DNA of 64,000 bases, from positions 186,001-250,000 of the forward strand of contig JABYQN010000014.1 in the NCBI GenBank assembly GCA_022606135.1, in the 5' to 3' direction. Below the pieces are notes generated by a model. It worked only from the letters and a program-made list of their open reading frames with translations, was not told the DNA's origin and searched no databases. Both the position numbers and the translations under genes were made by a program. Each line of letters begins with the position of its first letter. Positions within the stretch are counted from its first letter, which is position 1. Shown piece after piece: positions 5,849 through 42,184 of the stretch. The stretch is from Fomes fomentarius (taxonomy: Eukaryota; Basidiomycota; Agaricomycetes; Polyporales; Polyporaceae).

Positions 5849-5850
5849 TT

Positions 5851-8503: not shown

Positions 8504-8574
8504 ATGGGCAAGCAGAATCGACGCCTAACTTGCCTACAGACTTGCATGTAACAGTAATAACCAATACACAGTGA

Positions 8575-12150: not shown

Positions 12151-12213
12151 ACATACCAACTCATTCCCCAGCGCTCACAGTAACCACCACAGCCAACCAG
12201 AACCTTCTCAACC

Positions 12214-12555
12214 ATGTCTTCTTTCCACACTCGCACCCACTCTCGCCGTAACTATTCCAACATTCACAATGTTCCTAAAGCCCCTCGTTTCATTCTGGAG
12301 CGTCGCCCTGTCCATTATTCCCATCTCCCACGCCATACCATCTCCACCGACCCTGATGGAAGCCTGTCCGACCGTATCGGATGGGTCCTCCTCCATAAGG
12401 ACCTTGTGGGGCACGTTGAGGCTCGCCTCCGTCACATCCCTCATGCCGTAGCTTCGGCTGGAGCATACCGGGCCCTTGCTCGGGCGGCACCTTCTTATGG
12501 GGTCCTCAAGAGATACGTCCCCAGGCTGGGGGCCCCAAGAAGGAGAAGACGGTAG
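12214..12555 (+). CDS. Chromovirus ORF3, N-terminal part (unknown function)
   Basis: A 113-codon frame starts 64 bp after pol. The product is basic, with an Arg/His-rich start (MSSFHTRTHSRRNYSN) and an Arg-rich end. It ends two bases before the ATG of the next, longer frame. The two may be one ancestral protein split by a frameshift. Position after pol is that of env in some Gypsy elements, but there is no signal peptide or membrane span, so an envelope role is not supported. Confidence 0.5.
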   Translation: MSSFHTRTHSRRNYSNIHNVPKAPRFILERRPVHYSHLPRHTISTDPDGSLSDRIGWVLLHKDLVGHVEARLRHIPHAVASAGAYRALARAAPSYGVLKRYVPRLGAPRRRRR

Positions 12556-12557
12556 CA

Positions 12558-13406
12558 ATGCAGGCTCTCGACGAAGCCTATCAGGCGACAATTCAGGCTG
12601 CGGAACAAGTCATCGATACCTTGGCGACACCGGTTGTTGCCCGGGCTCTTGCAGACCTCATGCCCCTCCGCAACCAGCATGTCACGCAGAACCACGGATG
12701 GATTCTCAATTTCCCAGAGCATTTCCAAGACCACCAAGGAAACACCCCAGAGCCACCATCCTGGTCGCCGGTCTCATGGGACCCATGGGGTCCTTCTCCA
12801 AACCATGCCGACAGGGAAGCGGCGTGGGGCCCTTCTCCAAAGCATGGCGACGAAGAAGCAGACACGCCGGAGTCTACCCCGTCCCTGTCGCCATCTTCGC
12901 TACCCCCTCTGGAGCGGCTCGACCTGCGGTCAGTTGAGGAGGTTGATGAGCAGGATACCGCTGTCGTTGCAGCAGGAGATCCCTCACCACCACCGACACC
13001 ACCGCCATCCGCGACCACACCACCTGACCACGGCATCCCACACTTGCGGCGGTATCGGATGATGCGCGGACTAGGCGACACACGGTTCCTCGTCGTCACC
13101 ACGGACAACGAGATCGTCTCTGTCACCGACCGAGGTTTTCTCTTCCCCTCAGAAGAGATGGAGTCAAGGTACCGGGAGTTATGGCCAGATGCAACGCCGC
13201 TGCACGCACGACGAGCCGCACTTATCATAGACGACATGGTAGCTAGGCACACCAACCCTCTCGCACTGCGCCAAAACCTTCTCGCTCCCATCGCTACGAT
13301 AATGCGTTACCGGAGTGTGATTGGAGTCTCAGAGGAAGAGGAGCGGTTCTGGGACGGGTGGGGGATCGAGTTACAACGGAGGAACAGATCACCGAAGCCT
13401 TACTAG
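12558..13406 (+). CDS. Chromovirus ORF3, main part (unknown function)
   Basis: A 282-codon frame between pol and the 3' LTR. The N-terminal 70 residues look helical, the middle is rich in Pro, Ser and acidic residues, and the C-terminal ~130 residues look globular (RYRMMRGLGDTRFLVVTTDN, later FPSEEMESRYRELWPDATPL). It has no transmembrane segment and no domain I recognise. It is uninterrupted although pol is broken, which would fit selection on a protein needed by the element, or chance. Confidence 0.55.
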   Translation: MQALDEAYQATIQAAEQVIDTLATPVVARALADLMPLRNQHVTQNHGWILNFPEHFQDHQGNTPEPPSWSPVSWDPWGPSPNHADREAAWGPSPKHGDEEADTPESTPSLSPSSLPPLERLDLRSVEEVDEQDTAVVAAGDPSPPPTPPPSATTPPDHGIPHLRRYRMMRGLGDTRFLVVTTDNEIVSVTDRGFLFPSEEMESRYRELWPDATPLHARRAALIIDDMVARHTNPLALRQNLLAPIATIMRYRSVIGVSEEEERFWDGWGIELQRRNRSPKPY

Positions 13407-13482
13407 CACTGACTCCCGAATCTCTTGCATCGATGACTGACTTGTCGTAAACTGTATATCATAGGGTCGAGGACGTCCCTAC

Positions 13483-13494
13483 AGAAAGGGGGAG
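13483..13494 (+). other. Polypurine tract
   Basis: The run agaaagggggag lies four bases before the 3' LTR, the usual place for the plus-strand primer of an LTR retrotransposon. Confidence 0.7.
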
Positions 13495-13498
13495 CTGA

Positions 13499-14004
13499 TG
13501 TTACAAGTTGATAAGTATGCGGTATTAGTGGTTAACTATGTAACTAGAATTATGGTACTCGATTTCTGTACTTTTACTTTTAGGATTCTCATGCCATAGG
13601 ATTCTTCGGTTATACGGTCATCCAGTAGTAGTCAGGACTATGGACTTAGTCAGCCAGACTGTACAGACTACTTCTGATTAGTCACCTTGACTGTGCAGTC
13701 TGTCAGGTCGACTGCGCAGTTAGTCAGATCGGCTGTGCAGCAGTAAGGACTTACTAATACGCAGCTTACTGCTAGATTTCCGCAGTCTCATTACATGTAT
13801 ATAAGGGGAGGATGTCTCAGAGCAAACTCCCCAAGCTTTAGTCTCTTCGCGAATAACACAGGCTACACTCTAGCAAGTTATCACTCGCTCTCTCAGACTC
13901 ACTTCAAGATCTCCTTCGTATAAGGATCGATCGGACTAGCAAGGTGATAAGGAACAAGGGTTACTACTCAAGTAGAAGTTTAATAGTCACGCGAGAGCGT
14001 AACA
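13499..14004 (+). repeat. 3' LTR
   Basis: Direct copy of 5343-5848, same length, no mismatch found by eye. It is followed immediately by GTAGT, matching the five bases before the 5' LTR. Confidence 0.97.
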
Positions 14005-15124
14005 GTAGTTTTCTCGTTATTGTTATTGTTCTTGTTGTCGTTCACTGGGTCCACAGTACAAGCACTTGCCGACAGGACAGCACTGTGAAGAACAATTCTG
14101 ATCCATGCTTAGGCTCAAGAGACCAAATCCCGAGCCCCGAGATCACAAGGAGGGAAGCTGGAAGACTGAAAAGCCCCAGGCCCAGAAGACGACGATATAG
14201 GGAAGACATAGAAGCTGAGAGAGGGCAGAGCAGGTATAGGGAGCAAAGGAGGACAGGCTGGGCCAATGCCAGCACACGGTGTAAATACTGTCAAGGTGCC
14301 TACTGATGACGCCATTTGGAGACTTTAGGGCAAGCATTGATTGACTTATTGCAATTGAGTAGTAAGTATCAAATCATCAACAGTCGCATTTCTTGGTATT
14401 TCATGCCTTGTTGCTCTTTTGAATGCACTGTTGCAGAGGTTATATTATGATATCTTCCATTTGACATCTGACAATGCATCTGCGAGCATCATTATCAGGT
14501 GGCTATGCCTCAAAAGCGCTCATGAGCATGCAAGAGTCTGGGTTGCATCTCCCAAGATCCTCAAGGTCTCACAATAGTGAGTGACTGCTGGTGAGATTTG
14601 GGTTTTTCCTGATGTATCCACAGTATGTTGAAGTAGAATGTTCTAATGTTGTGCATGCCCTGTAGAGGGTGTGTAAGGCCAATGATCAGCAACTGCTGGA
14701 AGAATCCAGATAGGTCCTATATGCATGTTAAGCTAAGCCATTATAAGAGGGCGGGAGATTGAAACACCTGTAATCTAACCCAGATATCATCCATGGTAGC
14801 TTCGGCAAGCATGTAAGAGGTAGTGTCATCAAGGTAGAGGCGCCCGACAACTTGTACTTTGTCTGTCGCCTGGAGGCTGGGCGCACCAACGGTGCTGAGC
14901 ACCCATGAAATGCTTGCTTCACTCGCAACAATCCTCCACCCCTACCACACTCTCCTATTCCATGAGCTCCATACCAATGCAATACAAAGTATTAGTCAAA
15001 TGGCTCTATCATGACAGACGTGACTACTGTAGTAGAATGGCGCTAGGTCCAAATTTAGGTCTCACGCTATGCACTGATACAGATGCCGAAAATGTGACCA
15101 AGAATAACACTAGCATTAACCTCT
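14005..15124. other. No gene seen; continuation of the retrotransposon's insertion target
   Basis: Short frames only. This should be the other half of the sequence interrupted by the chromovirus (5338 joins 14010). No domain is recognisable in the joined context. Confidence 0.4.
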
Positions 15125-16543
15125 ATGCCCGGATCCGATTTTGAAGACGATCAGCGAGGACTTCGCGAGCAGTGGGGTACGCTATGCGACCAACTTGTCA
15201 GAGCTCTTCGGCCGCAGAAGAATGCTGTCCGGCGGAGGATCGCAGACCTAGACGAGCAGCTCAATGGCATGATGGACATCAATCAGCTGCCCATGGAGAT
15301 CTTGCTCGAAATTCTCAAACTTGCTGTAGACATACCTCCCACACCCGAAGAGGCCCTCTCAGCTGGAGTGGTGGCAAGGTGGACTGAGAACATTCTCCCC
15401 ATATGCCACCATTGGTGCAGGGTGGTATGCTCCACCCCTAGCTTACGGCAAGTTATTGGCCTATGCTCCAACCCCAAATGGCTTGCTCTGTGCATGGCGT
15501 GAAGTGCTGAGCTCCACGTGGACCTTTCTCTTAAACAATGCGTATCTCGTCGCATGAAATTACTCCTCTGCTTGCTGTTGTCCAAGATACGGGCCCTTTC
15601 CCTCATAGGTGTCTCATATGTCTTTTCGTCAACCAGTCATTGGCCAGCTTTGGAAGATTTGTACATCCAGGCTGATCACAGCCCTTTTCTGGAGTGGGGT
15701 TTGGAATCACAGCGACTTCCTCAGCTACGCAGTCTAACTTTGTATGTCTGCGATCTTCCCCAAGACCTGTCGCACTTTCCTCCTCTCCGCCTACTTGACT
15801 TGCGCCATCATGTTGGGTCATTGCCATTGTCAGTAACATGATTTCTTTACATCGTGGAGTTGATGCAGAGCCTTGAACAGCTTTCCATTGACATTCATGG
15901 AACCCAAAACCCAGATGGGCCGTCAGACCCTGGACGTCTAATCACCTTGCCCCAGCTACAAAAGGCAAACTTGAGCTTTGGGAACTATAAGTACACCTTG
16001 CAGATCTTTGCTCGACTCCACATACCATCAGCCAGGTCTATTGTGATTGCAATTGACATTGCAGTATCTGACGCTGTTCCAAACAAGTTATTTACTGGGT
16101 TTCTTCCATCCGATCCATCAAGCATCCTGCCAATGGGGATGGACATGACCTCTGTGGACATGATAGTTGACACTCGAGACACTTCTTGTTACCCGCCTGT
16201 GATCGCTCTTCAAGCATGCAATTGCGACTATACAAATACATTCGACCTCTCCTTGACTGTCCGTGGTACTGGAGATGCCGGGAAGCTCCTTGATCGGGCT
16301 TGTCAAGAGCTCACCCACATTCTACCCACTTCCTGTCTGACATTGCTGTGTGTGCTTCAGATGCAAACCAGTCACATTGGTTGTGCTACAACTCTGGAAA
16401 GAAGCATATATATAACCATTGCATGCAAACGGCGAGAACCTCAGGATTTTGTTAGTGGAGACCCAATAAATGGGAGAATTCTTGCTGGCAGAAGATATTC
16501 AATATGGATGGGCTGCCATGTCATAGGTCCAGAGCCATTGTGA
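15125..16543 (+). pseudogene. F-box/LRR pseudogene with two in-frame TGA codons
   Basis: A single frame of 473 codons runs from 15125 to 16543 with only two interruptions, TGA at 15500-15502 and TGA at 15839-15841. Near the start is a coiled segment (RRRIADLDEQLNGM), followed by the F-box (INQLPMEILLEILKLA) and the usual ICHHWCRVVCSTPSL motif. LRR-like strands follow, such as LPQLRSLTLYVCDLPQDL. Both stops are at positions where CGA arginine would fit, so C-to-T change at CpG is the likely cause. Part of its 3' region (about 16199-16355) is repeated at 34559-34715. Confidence 0.8.
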
Positions 16544-20123: not shown

Positions 20124-20517
20124 TTAGCTTGAACGGTGCAATGCAAGATCACCAATTCTCCAGCGACGCAGAGAGATGTGGCCACGGGCAATATGCAAAA
20201 TACCAGTTCTCCGATATCGTCCGTCCGATACGTAGTTAAGGCGCGGCACTGCACCGACTGACGTCGCCCCCCACATACCGCACGGTCCAAACCTTGAGGT
20301 CACATTTCAAGTCTTGGCAAGACCCGGACCTGGCACTGGCAGGCGGCTCAAGAAAACAGCCTGAATGTATCAGCAGCCTGAGTCAGCTATCGCAATTGAC
20401 AGCACGGCCAGTGCACCAATACAGCGCTTGATGCGGAGAAACCATATGCACGCTGTCGCGCCACCAGTATATGAATGACCCCCCCAGACAAAAATGTTGT
20501 TGGGATGCAATATCGTG

Positions 20518-21065
20518 AATGATCACTCATGATCATTAATGATCACTCACTTTCACTCATGATCACTGATGATCACTGATGATCACTAATGATCACTCAT
20601 GGTCATCAATGATCACGAATGATCACGAATGATCATGCTCTGCCAATGTTGCAAGCTGCAATTTGGGTTGCTGCAACCATCGTGATTCATGGTGAATCAC
20701 AATGATTCACCATGAATCACGATGTTACATCATTTAGACAATAACACCATGCACACCCGAATCACGGTGTTTCATTATGATTCACCATGGTCGCTTAACA
20801 CCTGGAGCAGTCGGACCAAGTGCAGAGAGGTTATTACCAGGTCATTCACGATGAATCACGATGAATCACGATGAATCACGATGAATCACGATGAATCACG
20901 ATGAATCACGATGAATCACGATGAATCACGATGAATCACGATGAATCACGATGAATCATGATGAATCTCCATAATCATCATGATTTACCATGATGCACAT
21001 ATCCGAGTCCTCGGTGTGAACCATCGTGATTCACGATGATTCACGATGATTCACGATGATTCACG
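20518..21065. repeat. Left palindromic satellite block
   Basis: 20518-20640 holds many copies of TGATCACT/TGATCATTAATG-like units. 20690-20780 holds long palindromes such as gtgattcatggtgaatcac. 20851-20950 is ten perfect tandem copies of the decamer atgaatcacg. 21025-21068 is a run of the related unit atgattcacg. The coding part of the integrase gene starts ~90 bp further on. Confidence 0.9.
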
Positions 21066-21158
21066 ATGCAACAACCTTGGAGGCTGTTCTTCATACCTGC
21101 TCCTCAGGTCTGCCATTCGCCTTCAGTATTATCATACAGCTATAGACAGACAACCACA

Positions 21159-23027
21159 ATGGCTGATTCTAGCTCCCCCCCCCTCATCCTGGCCAATATT
21201 CGTTCAGCATATGCTATACTTGTGGAACGATTCTCCCATGCCATCCATACCCGAATTGGGGATGCACCTCACCTTGACGAAGTTCGGAGGCAAGCCTTAG
21301 AGCTTATGAGCCATGCTTCTCTGGTACTGTGATGCCATCTCACTAGTATAACTCAGTACTTATTCCTTTCATGTAGCATCATGAAGTTCTACCACCAGAC
21401 GAATATTCAGTTCTTCGCACTGCTGTTGCTGGTATGGTGCAGGCTCTCGACGATGCATGCCATGCCTCTGCAGATGCCATTGAGACACCTCCCATGGTGA
21501 TAACCTGGGAGTCTCGGACAGGACAGCGAGGCCGGCCTCGCAAGGATTGCGATCCCACATTTCTTGCTATGGCTGTCGATGTCTGTGGCCCCACCCAACT
21601 AGCCCCAGTTCTCGGTTGGTCATCGCGAACTATCTCTCGCCGTGCTGTCGAGTATGGTATTCGCCCACCTGGAGCTCCTGTCTTCAAGACGGTATCCGAC
21701 TCTGATGGAAGCACTACTCGCATTCACCAGTCGTCGACTCGTCCAGCTTCTACTCTCACAGATGCCGAGTTGGACCAAATTGTCGGACTCACATTAGAGA
21801 GCTTCCCCAACAATCACCAGCAGATGTTACAAGGACATCTTACAGCTATGGGTCACCGAGTCCCTCGTCGTCGGCTTCGCGAGTCTTTCCATCGTGTCCA
21901 TGGTGTTCCAGGGGTTTTCGGCAGTCGTCGCATCCATCGCAGAGTATACAAGGTGGCTGGAGCCAATGCACTGTGGCATCATGATGGCCAGCATGGTATG
22001 TGCAATACCAAATCAGCCTCCAGCAAAGTTAATCTGATGAATAGGTCTCATTCGGTGGAAGCTTGTGATCCATGGTTTCATCGATGGGCATTCGTGCTAC
22101 ATTACTGGCTTTCGTGTCAGTGATAACAACCGTGCAGCCACTGTGCTAGATGTCTTCCATGAGGCCATCTCCCACCATGGTTGTCCAAGCCGAGTACGTG
22201 GTGATCATGGTGGTGAGAATGTGCTCGTTGCCTCGTTTATGGAGGAATATCGTGGTACAGGTCGGGGGTCGTACATCTTTGGCCGGTAAGTGCAATCCCC
22301 TGTGATCTGACTTCTTAGAAAGCTCATCAGAATTGCATCTATAGCAGTGTTCACAATACACGGATCGAGCGCCTTTGGTGCGATGTGACTAATGGCTTTG
22401 GGCAGAAGTGGAAAAACTTCTTCACTGAGCTGGAGGCACACTGTCACCTCCAGGCACACAACGATTCCCATATCTGGCTTCTGCACTTCCTCTTCAAAGG
22501 TGCAATTAACCAGGATGCAGCAGATTGGGTTCGTGCATGGAACCACCATACGATGCAACTCAAAAGTAAGCGATTTCTGAAGTTGGCCACTATCTGCCTG
22601 ACTTAGATCTGCAATAGATGAGACGAATCGCAGTCCCTATGCTATGTACTTTGTCAGCTTGATCCGTGATGGTCCACGTGGGTTGGAGGGTGTAGCACAG
22701 GAGGAGGACATTGGGGACATTGCTGAGTATGGCATTGACTGGGCTGCAGCTGATGATCCCCACATTATGGATCATCTGCTCGGGCGTGAGGCTGATGCAT
22801 GGGACAGTGAGAATCCTTTCGCTGCTCCTCCCAAACAGCGTCCTCATGTTCCATGTGATGGTCCTGGCGATTTCTTTAGTCCTTGGGAAGTGCAGGAGCT
22901 TACCATGCGGCTGCACCAGACCCTTGGTGGGCTACTAGTGTCCCGCAACATGGAGGTCCGCAGACAGATTTGGATAGTTGCTTTTGAGATATGTGGAGAC
23001 ATTATAGCCAAGCGGATGCAGATGTAA
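21159..23027 (+). CDS. DDE integrase-core protein (rve superfamily), 551 aa
   Basis: Five exons join in frame: 21159-21323, 21377-21995, 22045-22285, 22345-22565 and 22618-23027. The N-terminal half contains a helix-turn-helix-like region (RGRPRKDCDPTFLAMAVDV, then LGWSSRTISRRAVEYGIRPP). The catalytic core follows with all three acidic residues: D in ALWHHDGQHG, D in RVRGDHGGENV and E in VHNTRIERLW. Spacing and surrounding motifs match the integrase core found in many basidiomycete and animal proteins related to retroviral integrase and Ginger-like transposases. It should cut and join DNA ends and is the best candidate to mobilise the surrounding block. No stop or frameshift is present. Fold assignment is strong; which element family it serves is inferred. 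Confidence 0.85.
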
Positions 23028-23157
23028 AGAGATGCTACCTTATGGCACAGTTTTATAATACTACTGCTACAGTGAGCTAATGACAGCTTGTTGGAACAGC
23101 TTGTCGGATGACAATGATCAACAGAAATAGATGTCTGAGTCCAACATAGCTTTTTTT

Positions 23158-23432
23158 ATAGTGGAGGTTCTGCCCAGACGTTCAGCATGAAAATTGGCGC
23201 ACACATAGCCATCCTGTTTCTGAGCCCAACGCAACTTGTTGCAAGGGAATACGGCCACCCGTTCCAAAGATACAGCCCTGGGATCCAAATGGCCGCACCA
23301 GAAGCGGCCAACATTTTTATAGTGGAGGTTCTGCCAGGACGTTCAGCATGAAAATTGGCGCACACACAGCCATCGTGTGTCTGAACCCAACGCAACTTGT
23401 TGCAAGGGAATACGGCCACCCGTTCCAAAGAT
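23158..23432. repeat. Tandem pair of ~114-bp units between convergent genes
   Basis: Copies at about 23158-23271 and 23319-23432 share tatagtggaggttctgcc at the start and cacccgttccaaagatac at the end, with a few substitutions. They are 161 bp apart start to start. They lie between the 3' end of the integrase gene and the 3' end of the minus-strand DSBH gene. Confidence 0.85.
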
Positions 23433-23583
23433 ACGGCTGTGTTCTGCTGCATCAGGTTATGTCCACAGTACCAGAGAAATTGCTTGAACTCATTAGGAGA
23501 TACAGAGTGATGCTCAAATCTCTCAGATGCAGGGAACACTATTGACCTTGTGCCAGAGGCTCCTATACACATTTATAGACCAT

Positions 23584-25462
23584 TCATTCATCCCCATCCT
23601 CGCTTTCATACTCATACTCATCCCCATGTGTGACCTCGCCCTCGTCCTCGTCCTCACCCTTGTCCTCGTCCTCACCCTTGTCCTCATCCTCATCCTCGCC
23701 CTCATCTGCACTACCGTTCATCTCTTCCATTATTGCAGCAGCAACTTCTTGAATGAAGGCTTGACCTGCAGCTGCGGCTGCCTGCTCTTCGGCAGTTGAG
23801 ATTCTACCAAAGGGTATGGCCTCTTGGGCAGCATGGAATACAGCACTGTGCTTAGCGGAAACTGTTGCGAGTCGGGGAGGGGTGACAAAGGAGATGCCTA
23901 TCTGCTGATACTCGGGGTAGAGATCCTCGGGATCATAATCCGCCAGGCTCGTAGCATGCCAGTGCCATGGCTGCCATGCAGTAAGAGTGTCTGTCGTGTT
24001 GATGATCTTCACCCCATAAGAGGATATGTAGAAGTGGCCACCTGCGGAGGCACCCTGGTTGCGGCGGAGGATCCACTGCACAGCAAACTTGTGGGGCTGC
24101 CGCTCGTGATGGACCCCACTGAACTACCTTAAGCAATGTTGGAATCATCAGTTGCTGGAAATAACACACCGAGAGTAATTTTGACCCATCATCCCACAAG
24201 CAGGGGCCAACTCCATGTCGTTGAAGAGAATTTCTGTTTCACCAAGGGACAATGATACCTCACCAGCAGTTGCCGAAGTACCAATGCCACCATCCATCCG
24301 CGGGAGTTGGTTCTTCTGGTTGAACTCGAGCCAGTCACCCATCACCTCAGCTGGCAGCCGCGATCGGCAGATATTCCAGGCAATAGCAAATAGACAGCTA
24401 GTGCGGTAGTCGGAGCTTGCAATGAAGTCTGGTGTAAGCTCCTGCTTGCGCAGGATGTTCCGAACCCATGCAAATGAGGGTTTCGAGCGCGCTCCTGCAG
24501 AGTAGCCAGTTTGAATGAGCTTCCCAGGATCCTCAAGCTGGTGGAAAGTGTCAATGCTATGGATATGAACGATAATTGTGCATCCGCACTCTGATTGACT
24601 GCCTGCCGCAAATGCCATCCTCGACAGCTTGGGCACCCCAGGCGAGGATTCCGAGGTTATCTGGCAGAATAAGTGTCGTTATCATCTAAGAAGTTTCGTT
24701 CACAGCCGTTGCAGATAGAGCCATACCTTCCTGCTCCACAGGAGTGGCGCCTGGAGTGTCTCCAAGTGGCGCAACCACTCCACGAAGTACAATCGCGATG
24801 AGCTCTTTGGTTTTGCGGTCGATGATCTTGCAGCTCGTCTCAGGCCCTATGACTGCCTGAAGCTTTGATGGTTGCACTTGATGTATCGGTCGCCGCTTCT
24901 GTCGTTTGTCTGGTTGAGGATCCTCATAGATCCGCTTCTTCCACTTCGCTGTGATAATCGGGTCTTCACTGAGATGTGTGTCTCGAGGAGGGTAGGGCTG
25001 CCTCAGCTTCGTAACCCAAACTGTCTCCAACGAGTTGACCCAAGCCTGCCCAGTCTCTGGATTGAGACCCAGCTGGTCGACAGCATATCTGGTACTGTAT
25101 AAAGAATATGGGTGGTTGTAGTTGACAGTATGTACTCACTTGTGAAGCCACCGATATGCCATTCGGTTTGCCCGATATTGCCCAACTGCTTCACTGACTT
25201 CGCCCTCAACCCCTGCAAGGTCCACATACTGCAAGAAGTCACGAAACAGAGAATTGTCGGTAGCATTGGAAAGGATTTCAAGCTCTGGCTGTTGGGCAAT
25301 GAGAGTGTGAAGCAGCTGAGTAAAAGCCTCTCGGGAACTAGGGACCGATGCATTCTGCAGCAGCATAAGGCCTTGGGGTGATGTATTGAGGCATATCGCA
25401 AGTTGGGCGAAAGCAAGCTTTCGAGCTCTCAAATGAGCACGAGGGGCACTGTTGTGAGGCAT
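23584..25462 (-). CDS. Double-stranded beta-helix protein resembling TET/JBP-like 2OG-Fe(II) dioxygenases
   Basis: Likely exons: 25140-25462 (ATG at 25462), 24727-25094, about 24170-24602 (start provisional) and 23584-24118. An N-terminal helical region is followed by a basic linker (KWKKRIYEDPQPDKRQKRRP) and a C-terminal domain of about 230 residues. That domain includes LEDPGKLIQTGYSAGARSKP, ELAPACGMMGQNYSRGVHHE, GGHFYISSYGVKI, LTAWQPWHWHATSL and IGISFVTPPRL. The GG-F...D-L...H...G-F-T pattern recalls the DSBH fold of fungal TET/JBP-type DNA-base dioxygenases, with HHE and HWHAT as possible iron ligands. The usual arginine before the last strand is glutamine (YQQIG). An acidic tail of Glu/Asp repeats ends the protein. 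Enzyme activity is unproven; a structural or pseudo-enzyme role is possible. Confidence 0.6.
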
Positions 25463-25589
25463 AGCAGCGATACAAGGGGAGGAAGGCAAGTGCACCAAGT
25501 GCCCCAGCGATAACGGCACACCCGACTGTAGCTTACTAATTTATGCATTGTATTACTACTTATGGAACCAACGAAGGTCGTGATATCTA

Positions 25590-26830
25590 TTGTAATAGCT
25601 ACAGCGCAGCCTATGCCGGTCGTACAGGGTCGTGGTGGTGTTCGCGTGGGGTCGCAGCTCTGGGGTTGTGCGTCGTTGAGGAAGGAGGCCGGCAGCGCTG
25701 GGCTGGGTTGCGAGGCCAGCGCAGGCGGGCAGTGCAGGCGACACAGAGGTGGCAGAGCACGATTTCTCGTGCTCTGCGGCCCCTGCGCCGGTTGTACGGC
25801 GTCGTGGGCATGTTGTCGCGGAGTCGGGGCCATGCGGTTGGCCGCCGTTGAGGAAGGAGGGCGACGGTGGGCGGCTGGGTGGCGGGACGGGCTTGGGCGG
25901 GCGGTGCGGACGACACAGAGGTCGCAGAGCACGATTTCTCGTGCTCTGCGGCCCCTATGCTGGTCGTACGGCGTCGTGGGCGTGTTTGCGTGGTGTCGAG
26001 GACACGGTGGAGGAGGTGGGGGAGGAAGGAGGGCGGCGGCGGTCGGCTGGAATGGGGAGGGGGTGGGCGGGCGGTGCGGGCGACACAGAGGTCACAGAGC
26101 ACGATTGCTCGTGCTCTGCGGCCCCTATGCCGGTCGTACGGGGTCGTGGGGGTGTCTTCGTGGGGTCCGAGGTGGCGGGAGAGGTGGCGGGAGAGGTGAG
26201 GTGGCGGGTAAGGGCGTGGCGGCGAGCAGGCAAGGGCGAGTCGTGGTTAGGCGCCCAGTGGCGCGCGCGCGCAACCACGCTCGGCCCGATGGGCCCGGAC
26301 ACGTGCCACGTTGCCAGCACATTTGGGCGCCTCGTCTCGCGTCACCGCCATCCACCCTACCACCACCACCACCACCACCCGTCCTTCCGGCTGTGGCCGC
26401 TGTACAGGCATTGGGACATGGCTAGGGGCATCCGTTTGGCAGAGCCAACGCGTACCTCGCCGATGTTGCAGTGTTTGCCAGTGCGAGCAGCCGGCTTGGG
26501 CACCCCCACCCCCTCCCCATTCCAGCCGACTGCCGCCGCCCTCCTTCCTCCCCCGCCTCCTCCCTCGTGTCCTCGACACCACGCAAACACGCCTACGACT
26601 CCGTACGACCGGTGCAGGGGCCGCAGAGCATGAGAAATCGTGCTCTGCGACCGCTGTGTCGTCCGCACCGCCCGCCCACGTTGGTCTCGCCACACAGCTG
26701 CCCGCCGCCGCCCTCCTTCCGCAACGGCGGACAACCGCAGGGTGACGACACCACGTGAACATGCCCACGACCCTCCACCACCGGCATAGGGGCCGCAGAG
26801 CACGAGAAATCGTGCTCTGCGACTGCTGTG
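25590..26830. repeat. ~171-bp hairpin repeat array in direct and inverted orientation
   Basis: GC-rich units each contain a hairpin made of gcagagcacga and tcgtgctctgc around a 4-base loop. Direct copies have hairpins at 25752-25777, 25924-25949 and 26094-26119 (spacing 172 and 170), plus a partial unit before 25750. Inverted copies lie at 26623-26648 and 26795-26820 (spacing 172). Between the arms is a short unique segment. The whole can fold into a large stem. Long open frames across it on both strands reflect GC content and are not taken as genes. Confidence 0.9.
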
Positions 26831-27088
26831 TCGCCTGCCCACAGCAGCATCGCGTGCCATGCGACCGACACTAAATTTGTGACTCAACGAATTCTAGGTC
26901 ACCGATGCCATTGTCCCGATGGGTTCGCTCACCATGCTGTACTACGAGGTAAGAGCAAGTCGGGCATGATATCCGATGATTTGCGACTGTTCTGCTGTAG
27001 TACAAGACAATCGTTTGTAACCTGTAGTACAGTGTCCAATGCAAGCTATTTAGCCACCCCGAGTAAACCACTGCGAGCATCACTGGTG

Positions 27089-28454
27089 TCAGTGATGGGT
27101 GCTTACTTTGCGAGAGTGCAACTTTACCTCTGCATATGTTGGTTTCTTCTTCAAGTTGCGACACAGAGCTGCGACCTTGTGGGCTTTGACATTGACTGCA
27201 ACTTGGTCCCATGCATTCTCGGCTCCTGGAGTGACCTGAGTTCTCGTCTTAAGAACCTCCTCTCCAACCCATCTACTGACGATCTCCCAAAGCCTTGTCT
27301 CCTCGGCAGAACGAGGGACCCCCCGAACCCCATTTACATCGAGTGCGAGCTGCGCGGCGACTGCATGGTTGTAGTTCGTGCGCCAGTTACCAAAAGTGCG
27401 CCACTTGGGCTCGCTTGCCAGCCAGTCCTTGACATGCTCAGGAGTGATGGTGACACCATCCATGACGATCCCTCCCGATTCATCGGGGCGAAGACCGATC
27501 ACATCCATGACCTTGACCCATTGCCGCACAAGCAAGAATTGCTTGTAACCTGTTTGATAATTAGCTCGCTCATACTTGCCCCATTCCACACGAAGCTCTC
27601 CAACACGATGATCGAGCACCTCGGAGGCATTCTAAATGTCGTAGTGAGCCTCAGTTGCATGGTCAGAGATAAGAACTGAATATGACCTGTGGAGCAACCA
27701 TCGTATGTGCCGATGCAAGGGGATCCTGAACCCATTGGGAAGACTGCCACGGAGCATTGGGCACCATTCCTGATTGATAGTAGGACCCAGGAATATCGCG
27801 AACATCACCAGTGTTTGCAGGAATGTCTGGCATGAAGGAGTCAGCGACTGGGGCACTGGCTCCCAAATCCTGCTTGATGGTGAGTCGGCAAGACCATACA
27901 GTCATGAACCACATAGACAACATACCTCATGCTCAGCATGGGTCAACCCTAGGGTGGAATTGGAGCGACTGAGGTGGCTATCTGGGAATAAGGGAGCATC
28001 GGCGACCACTGGTGTTTTCGTACTGTCACTGCCAGGTGAGGGAGGCGAAACAGACTCCTGTTGAAAGGAAATGAGAGTATGTAAGGCTCAGAACCCCGAG
28101 AGAAATGACCTGAACCCCAGCAGCATTGTGGGATGCACCGTCCCAAGCAAAGTTGAATTCAGGAAGGCCAGATTGACGACTTGGTTCTTGTAAGCGATCA
28201 ACTTCCTTTTGAGCCTCAGACTCAATGACCCGGTTCCAAGTGCCTGGTTCCTCTGACTGAGTCAAGTTACGAATTGTGTCCAGCAAAGCTGCATCGTCCA
28301 TCTCATCGGTACTTCGGTTGCCAACTTTGTTTAACAATACGACCATGGCGTGATATCGCTTAGCTTCACAAGTTCAGGGAATTAAATCTATTGCTCACCG
28401 ACCTTCGACATCTGACCCAACAGGGGATATGTTGCCTGAGGGCAGGTCAGGCAT
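27089..28454 (-). CDS. 375-residue protein with a possible Myb/SANT-like region
   Basis: Five exons join in frame: 28403-28454, 28110-28324, 27926-28057, 27687-27872 and 27089-27631 (1128 nt with stop). The first half is Ser/Pro-rich and probably disordered (ESVSPPSPGSDSTK). The second half is helical and well ordered (VLDHRVGELRVEWGKYE, then FLLVRQWVKVMDVIGLRPDE). The part VTITPEHVKDWLASEPKWRT followed by NWRTNYNHAVAAQL has the layout of Myb/SANT-like DNA-binding domains used by transposon proteins (x-W-x-x-x-L/I-x-x-x-P-x-x-K). The match is weak and by eye only. It lies between the DSBH and HECT-like genes on the same strand. Confidence 0.5.
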
Positions 28455-28763
28455 GGTTACCTGAAGTTGAAGGGGTAGAGAGATGGAAAGGAAGGGGCAT
28501 CAATAGGCGAGACTAAGCCAGGCACAAGTGTGATATCACACCGACTCTCCAGTCACATGAGCCACTCGAAGCAAGGCATATCATGCGATACCTAGGCAGT
28601 CTAACTGTTGCAATATCCTACACAAGTAAGAGCTACCAATGTGATAGATGATCGCCTCCCAGCCCTCAAGTACACCTGTGAACTAGAGAAACCCAAATTG
28701 ACATAATGCTGTGTCGGACCTGCTTCGCGAACCACCCACAATGACGACACTGTCGTAATGGAC

Positions 28764-31700
28764 CTAGATGTGATTGTATTGCATCGGGGCTGTCCACAGC
28801 AGCTGGTGGAGACTAGCATCAAATGCAGTGGCAGTCTCTGGAGGCGATGAGACATCGTTAGCAGTTATTAGCACATTAAGTGCTTCGGTAAAGCGAATGT
28901 CGATTGTCGCAGTGCAAGTGTGAATATGGAGCCAACTGCTGTTCGCCTCCACATCCTCATGCTGGAATTTGATCTACACAACTCCGATAAGCCATGCCTT
29001 GGCCTGGAGATGCAACCGAATTACTTACGAGAATTTGAAACCACTGATCAACAGGAATGAGCACCGAGTCCGAAACAGCTCGAAGCAATGCTGTCACTCG
29101 AATTGTGGAAGACTCTGCCTAATCAGCAGTATCAGATGACTCGGAGACTGTACGACTCAGACTGCATATGGCAACACATACCTCGGATGCAAACTCTTCA
29201 TCAGAGATCATGCATGCCTCACATAATCCAGGATAAGCAGGATGCCCAATACCTTGTGTGAGATATCGTTTGAAACGCCGGACAAACATGCGTTCCCGAA
29301 CAATCTGGAGTTGATGTACCCGCGACACAGAAGGGGTCTCCGAGCCATCTTCGTTCTTGCCCTTTGGCCCTGGCTCCTTCGTGAGAGCGAAAGCGATAAA
29401 CTTGACATAGAAATCTTTGGCATCCACCACTCGTCTGTCGTACATTGCCAGAATGAAACAAGGGATGTCATCTCGGTCCAACAGCTCAGACAAAGACTGT
29501 TAACATCCTTTAGTACCTCCCTGTCAAGCAACACAGGTATAGACCAGGCTCACACTGATGAGAGAACTGCCATTTTTCTCGCCAGCGACAGGGACTTGAA
29601 TGTTCAGGCCATCACGAAAGGCGATAAACTCGCCCATGCCTAGGATACTCGATGAATGGCCAAAGACAAGCTTGAAGATAGCCTTGAACAGCCACACATT
29701 GTGTGACTCAGGGGAGGGATCACTATCCCTGGTGTTCGTTACCTCAATGATCTGTATCGCACCATTATGGTTAGCTAAGACACTGAGTTTCTCGCATTGG
29801 ATACAACACTTACATTTTGTTCGAGAACCTCAATGATAAATTGTCGTGCAGGGTCACTATAGTCTGGTGGTAGTGGCTTATCCCATGGCAACAGCAGCCA
29901 GGGACACAGCTGCTGTGCAAGGTCCTTGTCAAGAGCTCCGAGGACCGAAAGCTCAGCGAATGGCAGGAGGACATCGGAGATATAGCGAGCATTTGTCCCT
30001 GCGACTGCAGGATGCAGGTCACGAAGATACTGAAATTTGAGATCATCGCTGGTGCCGAAGAGAGCGAGAAGAGCAGCCATGATGAAGAAGGGCGAGACAG
30101 GAAGTGGAGCCAAACCGAGACGAGCGATGTAAATGCCACATAGGGTGCCAAATGCTCGCCAAGTGTTTTTCCGATTGCTATTGCTGGTGCTGTCGTCGAG
30201 GAAGACTGGTTGAACATAGTCACCTTTCCTGGTCCAGAATGCAGCATTTGCACTCATTTCTTCGATCACTGCAACGAGGAGTGAACGAACGACACCACTG
30301 CCAAGTCCCCTACCACTGAATTGATATCAGTCTCACAATCCGAGCGACCATGTGAAGAGAATACATACACTGAGATAGTCGGTGACCAGCAGGCCACAAA
30401 ATCGAGCACCTCGAATGGTGTGAACTTGGTGACCCCAGCTGGTGCAGACCATGCATCGCGAGACCATTTGAGAGGTTGCTCGACAATGAGCTGCACATAG
30501 CTTATGAAAGCTGGAGCGAGCTCTTCAGGTGAACGAGCCTCCAGCTCAATATAGATTTTGGCTGCATCTTCCTCATCCCTTGCTTTCTCAAGTGCCCCAA
30601 ACCACTCAAAGAGTTGTTCACTCAACCCTTGTGCAGGTGCAACACTTGGGATGTCAGAGGTCCTCATCGACGACACTGTCTGGGTCGGATGGGGGTTCGC
30701 TAGTAAGAGCATGGGACTTAGGTGTGAGCTCGTCGGCCCTGAAGTGGAGTGCGAACTACTAAAGTACAAACCTGGAGTCTGTGAGCTGGACAGCGACAGC
30801 CCTGGAGTGAGGTGTGAGGTTGTCGACGACGAGGACAGCCTCGGAGTCAAGCTCGTTGAGGATGACAGCAGCCTCGGAGCCGGCTGCGAGCTCGACGACG
30901 ACGATGACAGCCCTGGAGTCGGGTGCAAGCTCGTCGACGACGACAATAGCCCTGGAGTCGGGTGCGATCTCGTCGACGACGACAACAGCCCTGGAGCCGG
31001 CTGCGAGCTCGTCGACGACGACGATAGCCCTGGAGTCGGGTGCGAGCTCGTAGAGGACGACGACAGTCCTGGAGTCGGGTGCAAGCTTGTAGAGGATGAC
31101 GACAGTCCTGGAGCCGGGTGCGAGCTCCTCGATGACGACGACAGCCCTGGAGTCGGGTGCGAGCTGTGCGAGCCCATCGAATGTGAGCTCGTCGAATGTG
31201 CGCTCGCCCAGTGCGAGCTTGTCGGGTGCAAGCTTGTCGAATGCGAGCTTGTCAGGTGCGAGCTCGTGGAGGACAATCTCGGAGTGGGTATTGGGAGGGA
31301 AGTACTGTGTTGGGATGTGCGACCAAGAGTCTCTGCCTCGAGTATGTCGCGGATAGAGGGAAAGTCGCCATCAGAATCGTTCGATCCATCGTCTACACTG
31401 TACACCAACAACATTGTGTCAAGTGCTGGAGTAAGAGACGACAAAGCCCCTGCGATGTTCAAGGGAGTCAGTGATTCTGAAGGGCGACGAGGCCGAAACG
31501 ATGAAGATTCAGTTCGTGCATATTTGATTGAGGGTGGAGTGGGTGGGGAGCGAGGGTGGATCCGGGATATCTGTGAGGGGCGAGGAGGTGTTATCTGTTG
31601 TGGAACCTCTGGAAGGTATCGTGCAGGCTCGCGATCGCAAAGAGTGCAAGGTGGACACTGGTTGTCGTCACACTCAATAGTCGCTGGAACTGGAACATTG

Positions 31701-33516
31701 GTGCGGCCACGGAACTTGATATACCGAAGAAACATCCGGAATGGAGTGCAATAGTGTGGCTGGTCATGGCAGGCACAGATGCGACCAGCTCCGACAAGAT
31801 CGTGTGAGAGCGGAAGTGCGAGCGAATGAAACAGAGGGCCTGCAATGGCAAGTTGTCAGGCAAGAGCTAAAGCACACACTAAAATGACTCACATATGAGA
31901 ATGAGGCACACATCCTTGTCCAATGGATGTGGTATCAACTTGAGCAACTTTCCTAAGGTCACCTCGACAGGATTGAGATCAGCCCATTCCAGATGATAAC
32001 TGCCTTGAGGAGCTCGGGTCTTTCGCATGACACCCCAGCCGAGCTCGTGGTAGCCAGCAGGAGGTGAGACTGATGCCGAAGACGACGAAGTTGGAGGCCC
32101 CAATGACGATGTTGTGAAAGGAGGGAGACGAAGAGTGGTAAGATGGGAACGAACAGCTGTATCAATCTCTGGGCAGATAGGCTGGGTATGTGGTGCTTCG
32201 AACTCGATATTATCGATCAGCAAAGCATGCTGTCGAAGGGCGAGCAGGATTGTCGGGATGTCGCTGTTTTGTATATTAAGATGGAAAGCTTTCAGGAGGC
32301 CATGACCAGACTTTCGGTGGTGAGAACCATCCTAATCAGTGTAAGATTAGCATTTGTCACACCCCACTAGAGCTTAATGTGCTGGACTCACTGCGATCGG
32401 GATAATCCCTATCTGAACCCGTGTTTTCATGCGCACAGAATTAGTCACGGTCGCTGCAGCAACTGCCTTGCCAGAACCTCGAGTCACATTGATCGTGTTC
32501 GCCGCAGCATGCTGAGGAAGATTGCGACGAGCACTTGCAGAGCGCAGCTGGGCAACATTGCGACCCATCGCCAATGGACCAGACAGTGCTGCGATCGGCG
32601 ATATGGCAGGAACCTCGTTCAGAGGAACACTCATGGCTGAGATTGGCCGGGCATTGAAAGAGAAGCCAGAGGAAGACATGAAGGGATTGTACATAGTAGC
32701 AGGAGAGGTGGCATTGGGCATATTTGAGGCTGGATTGGGGATAGACATAGAAAGTTGAGAGGAAGTGGGCATAGACAGAGTGGGCATAGATTGAGATGAG
32801 AACGAAGGCATAGATTGAGATGAGAACGAAGGCATAGATGCACCAGATGTAGACATAGACAAAGACTGATTGGGCGAAGGCACCCCGATAGATGACATGG
32901 CCGAAACAAGATACGAAGACGACGAGTAGCCACTGGTCGGGGTCGTACCCCCGAGTGGGTCAGAGACACTCGCCGAGTCTCCACCTGAAGTCATCCTGTG
33001 CTGTGCATGTCAGATTATGTTGGTGAGTATCGGACGAGACAGTCGCACCCAGGATTAGCATGGAGGCTTCGCTTCTGGCCACAGACACACACTGCCTCTG
33101 GATTAGGCTGGTCTGTGAGAGTAACCTGAAGCAATCTGACTCAGTGATGAAGACAGTAGAGCTCTAGATGGGGAAACGAACCGGGTGGTACCCTCCACAT
33201 GTCGTCTCCAGACATGACAGGTGGCCTGATAAGTACGACAGAGCAAGTTGTTTCATATTGGGAGTGAGCTCGTCGATGTCGACTTTATGCTGGAACCAAG
33301 GGTGTCTACACATCACACAATCGGTTTGTGGATAGGGAGGAACCTGTGAATGAGCAAGGACATGTAAGTATCTATCGGCCATTCCTTCGGTACTACAACA
33401 GATAAAGAAACAAACATGATAAAACTGGTCCTGCACTTGTATAATAAAGGCCCGACAGTTACACCTGCCACACTGGGAGCGAGGATACAGGGGGGCAGAG
33501 CAGTAGGGGCAGACAT
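28764..33516 (-). CDS. HECT-like E3 ubiquitin ligase-type protein, multi-exon
   Basis: The gene starts at ATG 33516 (MSAPTALPPC) and ends at 28764. Early exons encode a Cys/His-rich segment (CVMCRHPWFQHKVDID, with a later CLETTCGGYHP) and a Ser/Met-rich spacer (32374-32994). The 30266-31735 exon starts with a conserved block (CPPCTLCDREPARYLPE) and has a long Ser/Thr/Pro tandem-repeat region. The C-terminal third resembles a HECT domain: WRAFGTLCGIYIARLGLAPL near 30150, later FKRYLTQGIGHPAYPGLCEA, and a last exon (28764-28973) with LHIHTCTATIDIRF. The HTC there matches the catalytic-cysteine motif of HECT C-lobes. Such genes are expanded in Agaricomycetes. I did not settle every exon boundary between 28973 and 33164. 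No inactivating change was noticed. Confidence 0.55.
30790..31290 (-). repeat. Coding minisatellite in the HECT-like gene
   Basis: About eight tandem copies of a ~16-residue unit of the type SSSSTSSHPTPGL, followed by shorter SSHSTS repeats, are encoded on the minus strand. Unit length at DNA level is about 48-51 bp. The long frame on the opposite strand (Val/Asp/Gly/Cys-rich) is its antisense shadow. Confidence 0.8.
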
Positions 33517-33587
33517 TGGGAAAGGTATAGCGAGCGAGAAACGAAGGCGAGTAGACCCTGGGTAGAACTGGGGAACAATGCTTCGGA

Positions 33588-34019
33588 ACGATTCATTGTG
33601 AATCACGATGATTCACAGTGAATCGCGATGATTCATCATGATTCACGATGAATGATGCTTGGACCAGCACCCAAGGCCATGCACCTTGCACACAATATGA
33701 GATGCGAGCCATTGTGTTTCACAAGGATTCATGATGATTCATGACGATTCATCATGGTTCACGATATATCGCCCTTTGATGGTGTATTGTACAGGGGTAG
33801 CAGATCATCGCGAGCCATCGTGAATCACGATGATTCACGATGATACACGATGATTCACTATGATTCACAATGTGTGTCTAATCCTGTCCTCGGTGATTCA
33901 CGAATGAACACAAATGAACACGAGTGATCATTCGTGATCATTCGTGTTCATCCATGTTCATTCATGTTCATTCATGTTCATTTGTGTTCATTCGTGTTCA
34001 TTAGTGTTCATTAGTGATT
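33588..34019. repeat. Right palindromic satellite block
   Basis: Palindromic ATGATTCACG/TGTGAATCACG units occupy 33588-33650, 33710-33770 and 33810-33870. Units of the type TGATCATTCG and TGTTCATTCA run from 33905 to 34019. The order is the reverse of the left block: ATTCACGATG units inside, ATCATT/TTCATT units outside. The HECT-like gene starts only ~70 bp inward. Confidence 0.9.
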
Positions 34020-34122
34020 ACTTCATTCCAATTGTTTTTGTCCAATGGGGCCCTTCATACCAGTACCTGTATGAATGTGCGTTAATGAGATGCGGTGGCG
34101 CCAGTAGAAAAGAACGCAGGAT

Positions 34123-34258: not shown

Positions 34259-34558
34259 AGCGTAGTACGAGTTCTGGGATGGGTTAGTAAGCTGCCACAA
34301 CGGTTGATTGCTCAGTCTCCCAGAAGTCATTGAGGATTTATATAAGCACCTACCAGGAGCGCGCCTGGCGAAGTACATATGGCTGCAAGGAATCTCCTGC
34401 TCACGTCAGATCAACAGACATACTATGTATGACCGTTCAGATGCCCGAGGGACATGCGGCTGAACAGGGACTCAGCGCTGCACATGTTCGCGTTACGCCG
34501 AAAATTCCCTCCTCCTCCTCCTCCTCCTCCCTGTTATCCCACGAAATGTTAACAGCCT

Positions 34559-35250
34559 GTCATCGCCCTTCGAGCGCGCAATTGCGACTATACGAATTCA
34601 TTCGACCTCTCCTTGACTGTCCGCAGTTCTAGAGATGCCGGGAAGCTCCTTGATCGGGCTTGTCAAGAGCTCACCCACATTCTACCCACTGCCTGTCTGA
34701 CATCGCTGTGTGTGCAAGGATACCATTCAGCCTTGTATCGAGAGCCACCTGGCAGAATCCGTTTGCGCACTATCCCGACCTGGAGTCGATAGCTCTAGCT
34801 GGATGGTCCTCCAGTCACAGATTTTGGGAGGCGCTCCAACCGCAGCCCAAGTCTTCCTCACCGGCGTCTTCCCTACCTTCACCGATGAACCACCACGCTG
34901 CGGTACCATGTCCGCGCCTCAAGTCCATCGGCATCGTGGTGTGGATTGTCGTACGAAAGATAGAGACCGAGTCTTGGGCCATGCCCAACGCCCTTTGGTT
35001 GCGGAAAGAGCATGGACACCCTTTGGCGACGCTAAGCCTGGACTGGAACTATCACCTTCCCCCTCGCGCCCCAATTCTCAAACCCAGCGATACGGAGTAC
35101 CTGCATAAGCTGGCGTCTTCCGTGAGACAAGTTATGTGTAGGTCGGTAAATCAACCCAAGTGGTCGTATGTCATCCATGCCATGGCTTGTTCAGTAAACG
35201 TCGAAGCTAATCAACCCTTCGTGGGCTCTACAGAAACGTGTTTTCTCTGA
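34559..35250 (+). pseudogene. F-box/LRR C-terminal fragment, frameshifted
   Basis: The first ~155 bp are about 90% identical by eye to 16199-16355 of the F-box pseudogene (shared strings include gggaagctccttgatcgg). The frame then changes, and an LRR-like end is read: FAHYPDLESIALAGWSSSHR and CPRLKSIGIVVW, typical of the last repeats of fungal F-box proteins. No F-box or start codon is present, so this is a relic. Confidence 0.65.
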
Positions 35251-40606: not shown

Positions 40607-41250
40607 CTACTCACGAACATACGTTCAGATGGTCAGTTCTCTGATATCGCTCAACTTTTTCCGGTGGGGCTTACATGTCACACAGTGTGTGTGCCTTATG
40701 AACAGAAGCCTCCTCAAACTCGGGTACTAGCATCACGAGCCCGAGTCGTGTAGCAATGTAGTGAACTGGGGGAAGTACTTATGTGTTCTGCTTAGCAGTA
40801 CTCTTTTTGGTCTCGAGTCATGCGGCCAATCCAAGGTAAGCAGGTTGGCGAGAGAGTGAAACGGTGTGGTGAAATTCGGAAGTTTGAGATACGAAGAGGG
40901 AGACTGGATACGCATAAGCGACTGATCTTCCGCCGCGTTGCGGCCAACTTGAATGAATGCTGGATGTGCACACGACCTGCCACGGCGTGTCGTCTCCCCT
41001 AGAAGGAGAGGTTGGAAGAGGTTGGAAGAAGCTGGAAGCAGGGGAGGCAGGTCGACCGAGTTGTGTTTATCGGCTGCTTGAAAGGAAAAACACGACAGGG
41101 TTGCCCAGAACAAACATCAGGTCGAAGTTGCTCGCCACACGACCTCGAACGAGGCGCAGAAAAGATACTATCCAGGCAGAGAGGCTCGACGATCGGCAAC
41201 AAAATACGACAAAATGCGAGAGAGTCGCCCTCTTCGGTGCAAGCATGGGT

Positions 41251-42046
41251 CTACAACGAAAGCGCAGCCATGACCAACCCAACGGCGGCCGCGACACTTC
41301 CGGACGCGATCGCGATGGTAGTCGCGCCCGACTCGCCAGGCTTGGACAATTGGATCGACTTGAGGTCGACGCCCGCGTCCTTGCACGCCGACTCGTAATC
41401 TGTTTAGGTAGACAACCAATCAATGTTCGCGCATTAGCCAACGTTCCGAATCACACTCGGTCAGGGTAGAGCAAGAGGGAAAGACTCATGAAGAAAAGGG
41501 GATTCGTGGAGGGAGAACGTACTCGCGAGGCTGTCTTGTGCCTGGCTGAACGTGGTGGTGTCGTTGGGGACCAGGCCAACAGCGCACTGCAAGCAGGACC
41601 CGAGCCCGTTGTGGGTCTTATCGCTGCAGAGACAGCCGACGTCGGTGACGGAGCAAGTCTACCAGGAAGGGTGAATACGGAAGGACATGAGTGTCGTTGT
41701 ACTTATCCCAAAGAAGAGAACTCACCTGCACAGTATTGATGGCATCCGCACAGTCAGACTTGCACTATGCCACATATGCAGTATTGGATTAGAGATGCCC
41801 CCAGATATCTCTGATATTGTCGAAGGCGTACCTGCTCGGGTATACTGTCGGGGTCGATACCAGCCGTGTTCGTCGCCCTGTCAAAGAGGATGGTCGAACG
41901 GACTTTCAAGGCATGCTCGTTCGCAGCGGCTACCGGTCACATGTCGGGAATCCTTCATGAGCATCGAAGAGCCGATAGAAGAGGGGCGACAAACACTGAC
42001 CGTGACCGGCGAGAAGTGCGACAGCAAAGAGAGGGAGGGCGTACAT
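41251..42046 (-). CDS. Small secreted cysteine-containing GPI-anchored protein, paralog 2
   Basis: Five exons join to 153 residues: 42001-42046, 41832-41929, 41726-41758, 41523-41658 and 41251-41399. Exon 1, 2 and 3 lengths equal those of the copy at 1976-2769; exon 4 is two codons longer. The signal peptide (MYALPLFAVALLAGH) is identical. The cysteine part reads SDCADAINTV, then TCSVTDVGCLCSDKTHNG, SCLQC and ESAC, and the GPI-anchor tail SVAAAVGLVMAALSL is identical. The central region differs much more (RATNTAGIDPDSIPEQ here against an Asp/Pro-rich stretch there). Conserved ends with a variable middle suggest both are expressed and the exposed loop has diverged. Confidence 0.85.
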
Positions 42047-42176
42047 CGTTGTGAGGAATGAAGGAAGGCACTTGCTGAGAGAAAACAAAGGCAGTCGTGG
42101 TTCAAAGAACGGGTGTGCAGCGCCTTCAATAAGTAGGAGAAGAGTGTGAGCCGCGTTGTTGAAGCCGGAGCCTGAT

Positions 42177-42184
42177 CTTATATA
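42177..42184 (-). promoter_or_regulatory. TATA box of secreted-protein gene, paralog 2
   Basis: Minus-strand tatataag, ~130 bp before the ATG at 42046, conserved with the box at 2901-2908. Confidence 0.6.

Follow-up and report, generated by a model that had tools for sequence, protein, structure and literature searches.

The 64,000-nucleotide stretch of the Fomes fomentarius genome analyzed here (hereafter, the window; GenBank assembly GCA_022606135.1, contig JABYQN010000014.1, or C14:186001-250000) harbors a 13.6-kb mobile element, very probably a DNA transposon of the IS3EU/GingerRoot type that is autonomous and moves by cut-and-paste. In addition to a DDE transposase (gene 1), the element carries a candidate TET/JBP-like dioxygenase (gene 2) and two more genes (3 and 4). 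The key features are summarized in Table 1.

The block between positions 20470 and 34059 is a genuine mobile element. These positions are the breakpoints of its BLAST alignment with a second copy of the same family (A) at C8:1647420-1663329, and they coincide with inverted termini (TATGAATG..CCTTCATA; on the opposite strand, the right terminus begins TATGAAGGGCC) that are flanked by the six-base target-site duplication (TSD) CCAGTA. Random 6-mers at a spacing of 13-13.9 kb matched in 49 of 200,000 draws. Across the genome (40.9 Mb, 24 contigs), all four genes are linked, in the same order, at five different sites, in copies that form two families, A and B; terminal inverted repeats (TIRs) are present at both ends of all five copies, and the 6-bp TSD is exact and adjacent in four. 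A preliminary description of this DNA had proposed a single mobile unit with its own transposase, to be checked by a genome search for the four proteins and by alignment of the copies. Both bear it out: the genes are neither unlinked nor confined to a fixed site, and the alignment defines the ends and the target duplication. The degenerate inverted repeat that it placed outside two satellite blocks is real and represents the TIRs, but the limits are those given above and not 20479 and 34050. The mirrored palindromic satellites, consisting of outer arrays with a 10-bp period and inner ATTCACGATG blocks, indeed occur at both ends, although as subterminal parts of the element and not as its boundaries.

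The terminus pattern, with up to two mismatches, has 15 matches in the genome compared with none for the backward control. Ten of these are both ends of the five copies, two belong to a deletion derivative on C7, one is a lone end on C18, and the remaining two lie on C4 and C9. In the C7 derivative, 78 of 78 left-end bases of the window element are joined to 97 of 100 right-end bases, so that part of the outer arrays is retained, without the inner ATTCACGATG blocks. If this derivative moved after arising, the outer ~80-100 bp would be sufficient for movement. The C18 terminus is accompanied by a decayed relative of gene 4 with two stops and four frameshifts (C18:249.2-254.1 kb); this remnant is a relic of a third family.

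The transposase matches the Pfam family rva_4 (PF24764; E 6.5e-64, 215.7 bits) and, slightly under the cut-off, rve (E 2.7e-07). The catalytic D, D and E, with DD34E spacing, are retained in all five copies; among the matches found, the counts of which are lower bounds, transposase matches in the host genome are confined to the five elements. All five copies have TATGA..TCATA termini, in agreement with the TA..TA ends of IS3EU/GingerRoot, and the integrase-core DDE transposase and the 6-bp TSD, the latter exact in four of the five copies and found also in the C7 derivative, agree with this superfamily as well. In combination, the PF24764 DD34E transposase, TA..TA termini and 6-bp duplications fit IS3EU/GingerRoot. 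The accessible text of PMC10045372 describes this superfamily as having TA..TA termini, usually a 6-bp TSD, and the first catalytic D located 100-300 residues from the N-terminus (258 in our case); unlike the elements described in that text, which does not mention such cargo, the present one carries three additional genes including a dioxygenase.

Gene 2 encodes a candidate double-stranded beta-helix (DSBH) protein in which the HxE motif and the downstream H are present in all five copies. Seven database proteins among ~8000 scored candidates are related to it at E<=0.001; the named relatives come from Ganoderma leucocontextum (the best match), Lentinus tigrinus, Lyophyllum shimeji, Paxillus ammoniavirescens and Fomes. 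The shared motifs are EDPG..GY[ST]AG, HxExQPH (six of the seven) and HGTSL (five of the seven); relatives lacking HxE or HGTSL stop or diverge before the motif, one being truncated upstream of HxE. According to the accessible text of Kojima 2025 (PMC12730594), HxE is the hallmark of PE-type TET/JBP dioxygenases, the similarity of which to TET was indicated by structure-based comparison. Gene 2 resembles the PE-type in the replacement of HxD by HxE, in the downstream H and in its location in mobile DNA of Agaricomycetes, a likeness drawn from the description of the motif. The dioxygenase identity rests on these motifs, which support the TET/JBP-like assignment of the preliminary description in the form of a candidate HxE enzyme, a probable DNA demethylase. 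The only Tet_JBP match in the genome, at C18:387602-387961, lies outside the elements, is below the threshold (33.8 bits against a cut-off of 34.9) and contains an FHQD motif; alignment of gene 2 with this host sequence by hhalign gave no match.

The structures of all four genes, with 5, 5, 5 and 8 exons, are our own splice models, built without transcripts; as the preliminary description held, the genes are multi-exon and without noticed inactivating breaks, the models for the window copy being open from end to end. Comparison of the two A copies yields ratios of nonsynonymous to synonymous substitution rates (dN/dS) of 0.19, 0.18, 0.27 and 0.28 for genes 1-4 (550, 545, 374 and 1114 aligned codons, respectively), which show purifying selection on all four. 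Between the A and B families, dN/dS is 0.08 for the transposase and 0.22 for gene 4, rough values given that dS exceeds 2; for genes 2 and 3, dS is undefined. Among eight comparisons between B copies, five give dN/dS of 0.29-1.29 on few changes and are uninformative, two were skipped because of frameshifts, and one is undefined.

The two A copies differ more in the middle than toward the ends. The dS of gene 2 (0.437+-0.043) is higher than that of the transposase (0.159+-0.022) and gene 4 (0.188+-0.017), which suggests a different history for the middle of the element, and the identity per kb drops from 0.91-0.94 in the two leftmost bins to 0.69-0.85 over positions 22470-27470, rising again to 0.86-0.95 beyond 27470. 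It is possible, with the balance tilted slightly to the negative, that gene 2, the adjoining GC-rich inverted repeat and the 3' portion of gene 3 form a central module exchanged among related elements; such a mosaic is compatible with the transposon interpretation favored here. This case is built on a single pair of A copies, regional differences in mutation or codon bias could account for the gene 2 dS, and one block of gene 4 also reaches a dS of 0.40. The inverted repeat between genes 2 and 3 is present in all five copies, with arms of 267-412 bp that are 70-88% alike. In a genome search that skipped simple repeats, the family A arm had no matches outside the two A copies, and the family B arms, which consist mostly of short GTC/GAC-rich repeats, differ from it in make-up. 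A 121-bp direct duplication (95% identical; 23153-23434) lies between the transposase and dioxygenase genes.

The copies also show a decay of CpG. Taking as copy-specific those changes that are not shared by the other two B copies, we find 51 in B_C8 and 56 in B_C14, of which 27 and 36, respectively (63 of 107), are CpG to TpG or CpA; C-to-T changes at non-CpG sites number 5 and 2. This amounts to 63 changes on 1438 CpG positions versus 7 on 5205 non-CpG positions, a rate taken from element copies only. For B_C3, the most diverged copy, the direction of change cannot be assigned: 213 changes include 82 CpG losses and 33 gains, along with 36 non-CpG C-to-T. CpG-type differences make up 74 of 124 between B_C8 and B_C14 and 284 of 1655 between the A copies. 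Across the five copies, the observed/expected CpG ratio ranges from 0.72 to 0.87; the left and right flanks of the window have 0.76 and 1.05, respectively. Such decay is the trace of 5-methylcytosine deamination, as expected if the host methylates the copies, and DNA-methylase matches are found on C1, C2 and C3. This pattern suggests that a methylation mark exists for erasure and that the carried gene fails to keep the copies free of it.

The following scenario would account for these observations. At each end, the DDE transposase would bind the TIR together with the subterminal array, whose 10-bp period is in phase with the helix; it would then excise the element and insert it where the two target strands are cleaved with a 6-bp stagger. 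Less surely, with the odds about even, the HxE dioxygenase would oxidize methylcytosine in the element, or at its ends, and so keep host CpG methylation from shutting off the genes or hiding the ends. Genes 3 and 4 would serve accessory functions.

In the window copy, the left-hand 700 bp contain 22 instances of ATTCACGATG with up to one mismatch, the right-hand 700 bp contain 10, and the sequence in between has none; the other four copies contain 9-14 and 7-11 instances in the corresponding 700-bp ends and 0-2 internally. The motif of the outer arrays differs between families A and B, with the 10-bp period kept. This period is close to one helical turn and would fit repeated binding sites for the transposase or a helper. 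The subterminal repeats of CACTA/Spm elements are the model for this predicted role.

Genes 3 and 4 are conserved families under selection, without a known domain. The exon borders of gene 3 are less certain due to weak donor sites; its C-terminal part (~160 residues) is conserved, with 41% identity between the families. The preliminary description called its product SANT-like, a reading that finds no support: Pfam returned no match, SANT/Myb or other, to its domains from families A and B (limit E<=10) or to the complete family A protein (limit E<=1), and the single-sequence structure model (mean predicted local distance difference test score, pLDDT, of 40) is too poor to help. In gene 4, the C-terminal ~440 residues are conserved, and the cysteine of IH[TL]CT, near the C-terminus, is invariant in families A, B and C. 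A search that used the complete protein and took the domain for its region identified three Fomes proteins as relatives among ~8000 scored candidates. An upstream Cys/His-rich reading frame probably represents the 5' exon(s) of gene 4. Inside the gene, a 39-bp in-frame repeat array (30850-31165) has 8 copies in the window element and ~2 in the other A copy.

The HECT-type ubiquitin ligase assignment of gene 4 likewise finds no support, the tests for a HECT domain all having been negative. Pfam gave no HECT match, the best being a sub-cut-off DinB_2 (E 0.05); a HECT hidden Markov model run over the host genome, exon by exon, matched on C1, C3 and C5 only and not at gene 4; and hhalign against three host HECT genes aligned 16 columns with probability 3. 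In a profile shuffle test with the three host genes, 98 of 1000 shuffles scored at least as high as the observed alignment, and reversing the profile gave 22.7 vs 31.9 observed. When two host genes were used, the corresponding figures were 93 of 1000 and 38.6 vs 37.8. The profile of gene 4 had 6 matches in the PDB (best E 0.5), none of them to HECT. The HECT-like phrases that can be picked out by eye (AFR.GL, LLR...D.LIP, IHTCT) are backed by no test.

Table 1. Features of the element, its copies and its derivative (window positions unless a contig is given)
Feature	Position	Strand	Details
Complete element, family A	20470..34059	+	13,590 bp; from alignment to second copy, TIRs and TSD
Left TSD	20464..20469		CCAGTA
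Right TSD	34060..34065		CCAGTA
Left TIR region	20470..20518	+	starts TATGAATGACC
Left outer subterminal array	20519..20635	+	10-bp period, consensus ATGATCACTC
Left inner palindromic/tandem blocks	20678..21068	+	ATTCACGATG-type
Transposase gene (1)	21159..23027	+	551 aa, 5 exons; D258, D315, E350; Pfam
DSBH dioxygenase-like gene (2)	23584..25462	-	554 aa, 5 exons; HHE (380-382), HATSL (431-435)
GC-rich long inverted repeat, genes 2/3 intergenic	25610..26838		arms 25734-26072 / 26500-26838, 87%
Gene 3 ("SANT-like", identity not confirmed)	27089..28454	-	374 aa, 5 exons
Gene 4 ("HECT-like", identity not confirmed)	28764..32994	-	1275 aa, 8 exons; Cys1226 in IHTCT
Cys/His-rich reading frame upstream of gene 4	33164..33592	-	conserved in families A, B and C
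Right inner blocks	33590..33872	+	ATTCACGATG-type
Right outer subterminal array	33924..34016	+	10-bp period, consensus GTGTTCATTC
Right TIR region	34017..34059	-	ends GGGCCCTTCATA
A-family copy 1 (window element)	C14, window 20470-34059		TSD CCAGTA, exact, adjacent
A-family copy 2 (A_C8)	C8:1647420-1663329		TSD ACCTCC, exact, adjacent
B-family copy (B_C8)	C8:1633733-1647275		TSD GTCTGA, exact, adjacent
B-family copy (B_C14)	C14:309237-322568		TSD TTGGGC, exact, adjacent
B-family copy (B_C3)	C3:3028891-3041983		TSD CGTCCT; TAA between left duplication and terminus
Deletion derivative	C7:432329-432507		179 bp; TSD ATGAGA

Several points weigh against the interpretation of the element as an autonomous IS3EU-type transposon with a demethylase. 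The placement in IS3EU/GingerRoot is a probable one, drawn from transposase features, termini and TSD length, and the fourth and fifth bases of the TATGA termini (GA) do not match the TAYGG of the TET-carrying IS3EU of rusts. One of the five copies, B_C3, lacks an adjacent TSD, with 3 extra nucleotides on the left, and an empty site from another strain has not been seen. The four gene models were built on the window copy itself, which is the only one free of stops and frameshifts in all four. A_C8 has one stop in gene 1 and a frameshift and a stop in gene 4; B_C14 has one frameshift and two stops in gene 4; B_C3 has a stop and a frameshift in gene 2 and two stops in gene 4; and the gene 3 models of all three B copies contain one or two stops in a poorly conserved linker, which may be an unmodelled intron. 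Neither gene 2 nor two of its relatives match Pfam Tet_JBP (PF12851), and the gene 2 profile has no match in the PDB. The AlphaFold model of a relative (P0001) is poor, with a mean pLDDT of 53 and values below 50 at residues 233-389, and Foldseek with this poor model found no match at E<=0.001 and no TET protein among the 50 listed. Finally, the CpG decay shows that the copies were methylated despite carrying gene 2, so that protection is at best partial.

The missing Pfam, PDB and fold matches to TET are also what would be seen if the gene 2 product were a different 2-oxoglutarate-Fe(II) enzyme, making a new base, for instance, or acting on protein or RNA, or were inactive, and the accessible text of PMC12730594 itself leaves room for PE-type proteins with other activities. 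The element would still be of the IS3EU type. We regard this alternative as rather unlikely: the HxE and H[GA]TSL pattern, an association with transposons like the published one, the dN/dS of 0.18, and CpG decay that shows a methylation mark to act on all speak for the demethylase. Less probable again is a full counter-silencing kit, in which the HxE dioxygenase would oxidize host-made methylcytosine, a DNA-binding gene 3 product might aim this enzyme at the subterminal arrays, gene 4 would be a large thioester-type ligase marking silencing proteins, and the dioxygenase with the GC-rich inverted repeat would be a swapped module. An integrase-type (rve-type) transposase and a 6-bp TSD are also compatible with a Polinton-like self-synthesizing or virus-derived element, a highly improbable reading in view of the size of 13.6 kb with four genes and of the absence from the four proteins of any polymerase, protease, ATPase or capsid family match above the cut-off, apart from a few sub-cut-off chance matches. 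The gene-rich, intron-bearing block might also have brought to mind host genes clustered by chance, or a segmental duplication lying between satellites. This reading is refuted by the TIRs and TSDs, along with the five dispersed copies and the deletion derivative, and can practically be discounted.

Other observations concern the surroundings of the copies. On C8, a B-family and an A-family copy are 144 bp apart, with the transposase ends facing (C8:1633733-1663329), and A_C8 contains a nested insertion of ~2.37 kb (C8:1660388-1662758) that starts TGTAATGG, lies between CACCT repeats and resembles a solo long terminal repeat (LTR). In the window, a 169-bp repeat (91% identical; 16187-16355 and 34547-34715) flanks the element outside its ends; 510-bp direct repeats (99.8% identical; 5343-5852 and 13499-14008), without evident TG..CA ends or target duplication, may be LTRs that bound a young retrotransposon at 5343-14008; and a ~1.9-kb diverged duplication (83% identical) connects 1624-3558 and 40894-42810.

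The closest published relatives are the TET-carrying IS3EU transposons of rusts and Tuber indicum, which also carry an alpha-kinase (accessible text of Kojima 2025, PMC12730594). These share with the present element the DDE transposase, TIRs starting with TA, the 6-bp TSD and the location of the TET/JBP gene between the transposase and an oppositely oriented gene. In place of the alpha-kinase, our element has two other conserved genes, and no alpha-kinase is among the Pfam matches of genes 3 and 4 and of three full-length gene 4 relatives; the rust families end in TAYGG..CCRTA, compared with TATGA here. In the same text, a PE-type gene in IS3EU is reported from T. indicum only, and Polyporales are reported to possess TET-carrying Kyakuja only. 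Ganoderma leucocontextum, the source of the best gene 2 relative, has more IS3EU sequences than the other species compared in the accessible part of PMC8955403. Kyakuja, Zisupton, Dileera and Plavaka are likewise fungal transposons with TET/JBP cargo, but have other transposases and TSDs of 7-8 or 2-3 bp, unlike the 6 bp and PF24764 seen here; membership in Zisupton, Kyakuja or Plavaka, which requires a TSD of 8, 7 or 2-3 bp, respectively, was accordingly rejected, as was a KDZ reading. Our literature search, with subscription papers and supplements mostly outside its reach, recovered no IS3EU with HECT and no combination of dioxygenase, IS3EU and ubiquitin; the accessible part of PMC9741609 has nothing bearing on transposon-borne ubiquitin enzymes in this context. 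Nor did it recover a TET-carrying IS3EU in Polyporales or with the present gene set, although an equivalent Repbase entry may exist. The earlier statement that no described element has this set thus stands in that the gene set and hosts differ, but not in full, given that TET-carrying IS3EU has been published.

With this element, the range of IS3EU-type transposons that carry a dioxygenase is extended to Polyporales. Its gene set, apparently not described before, includes two conserved gene families under selection and without a known domain. With one intact copy, the 179-bp derivative as a hint of the minimal ends, and CpG methylation of the copies on record in their sequence, it provides a tractable system in which the use of such enzymes by transposons against host silencing becomes directly testable in one fungus.

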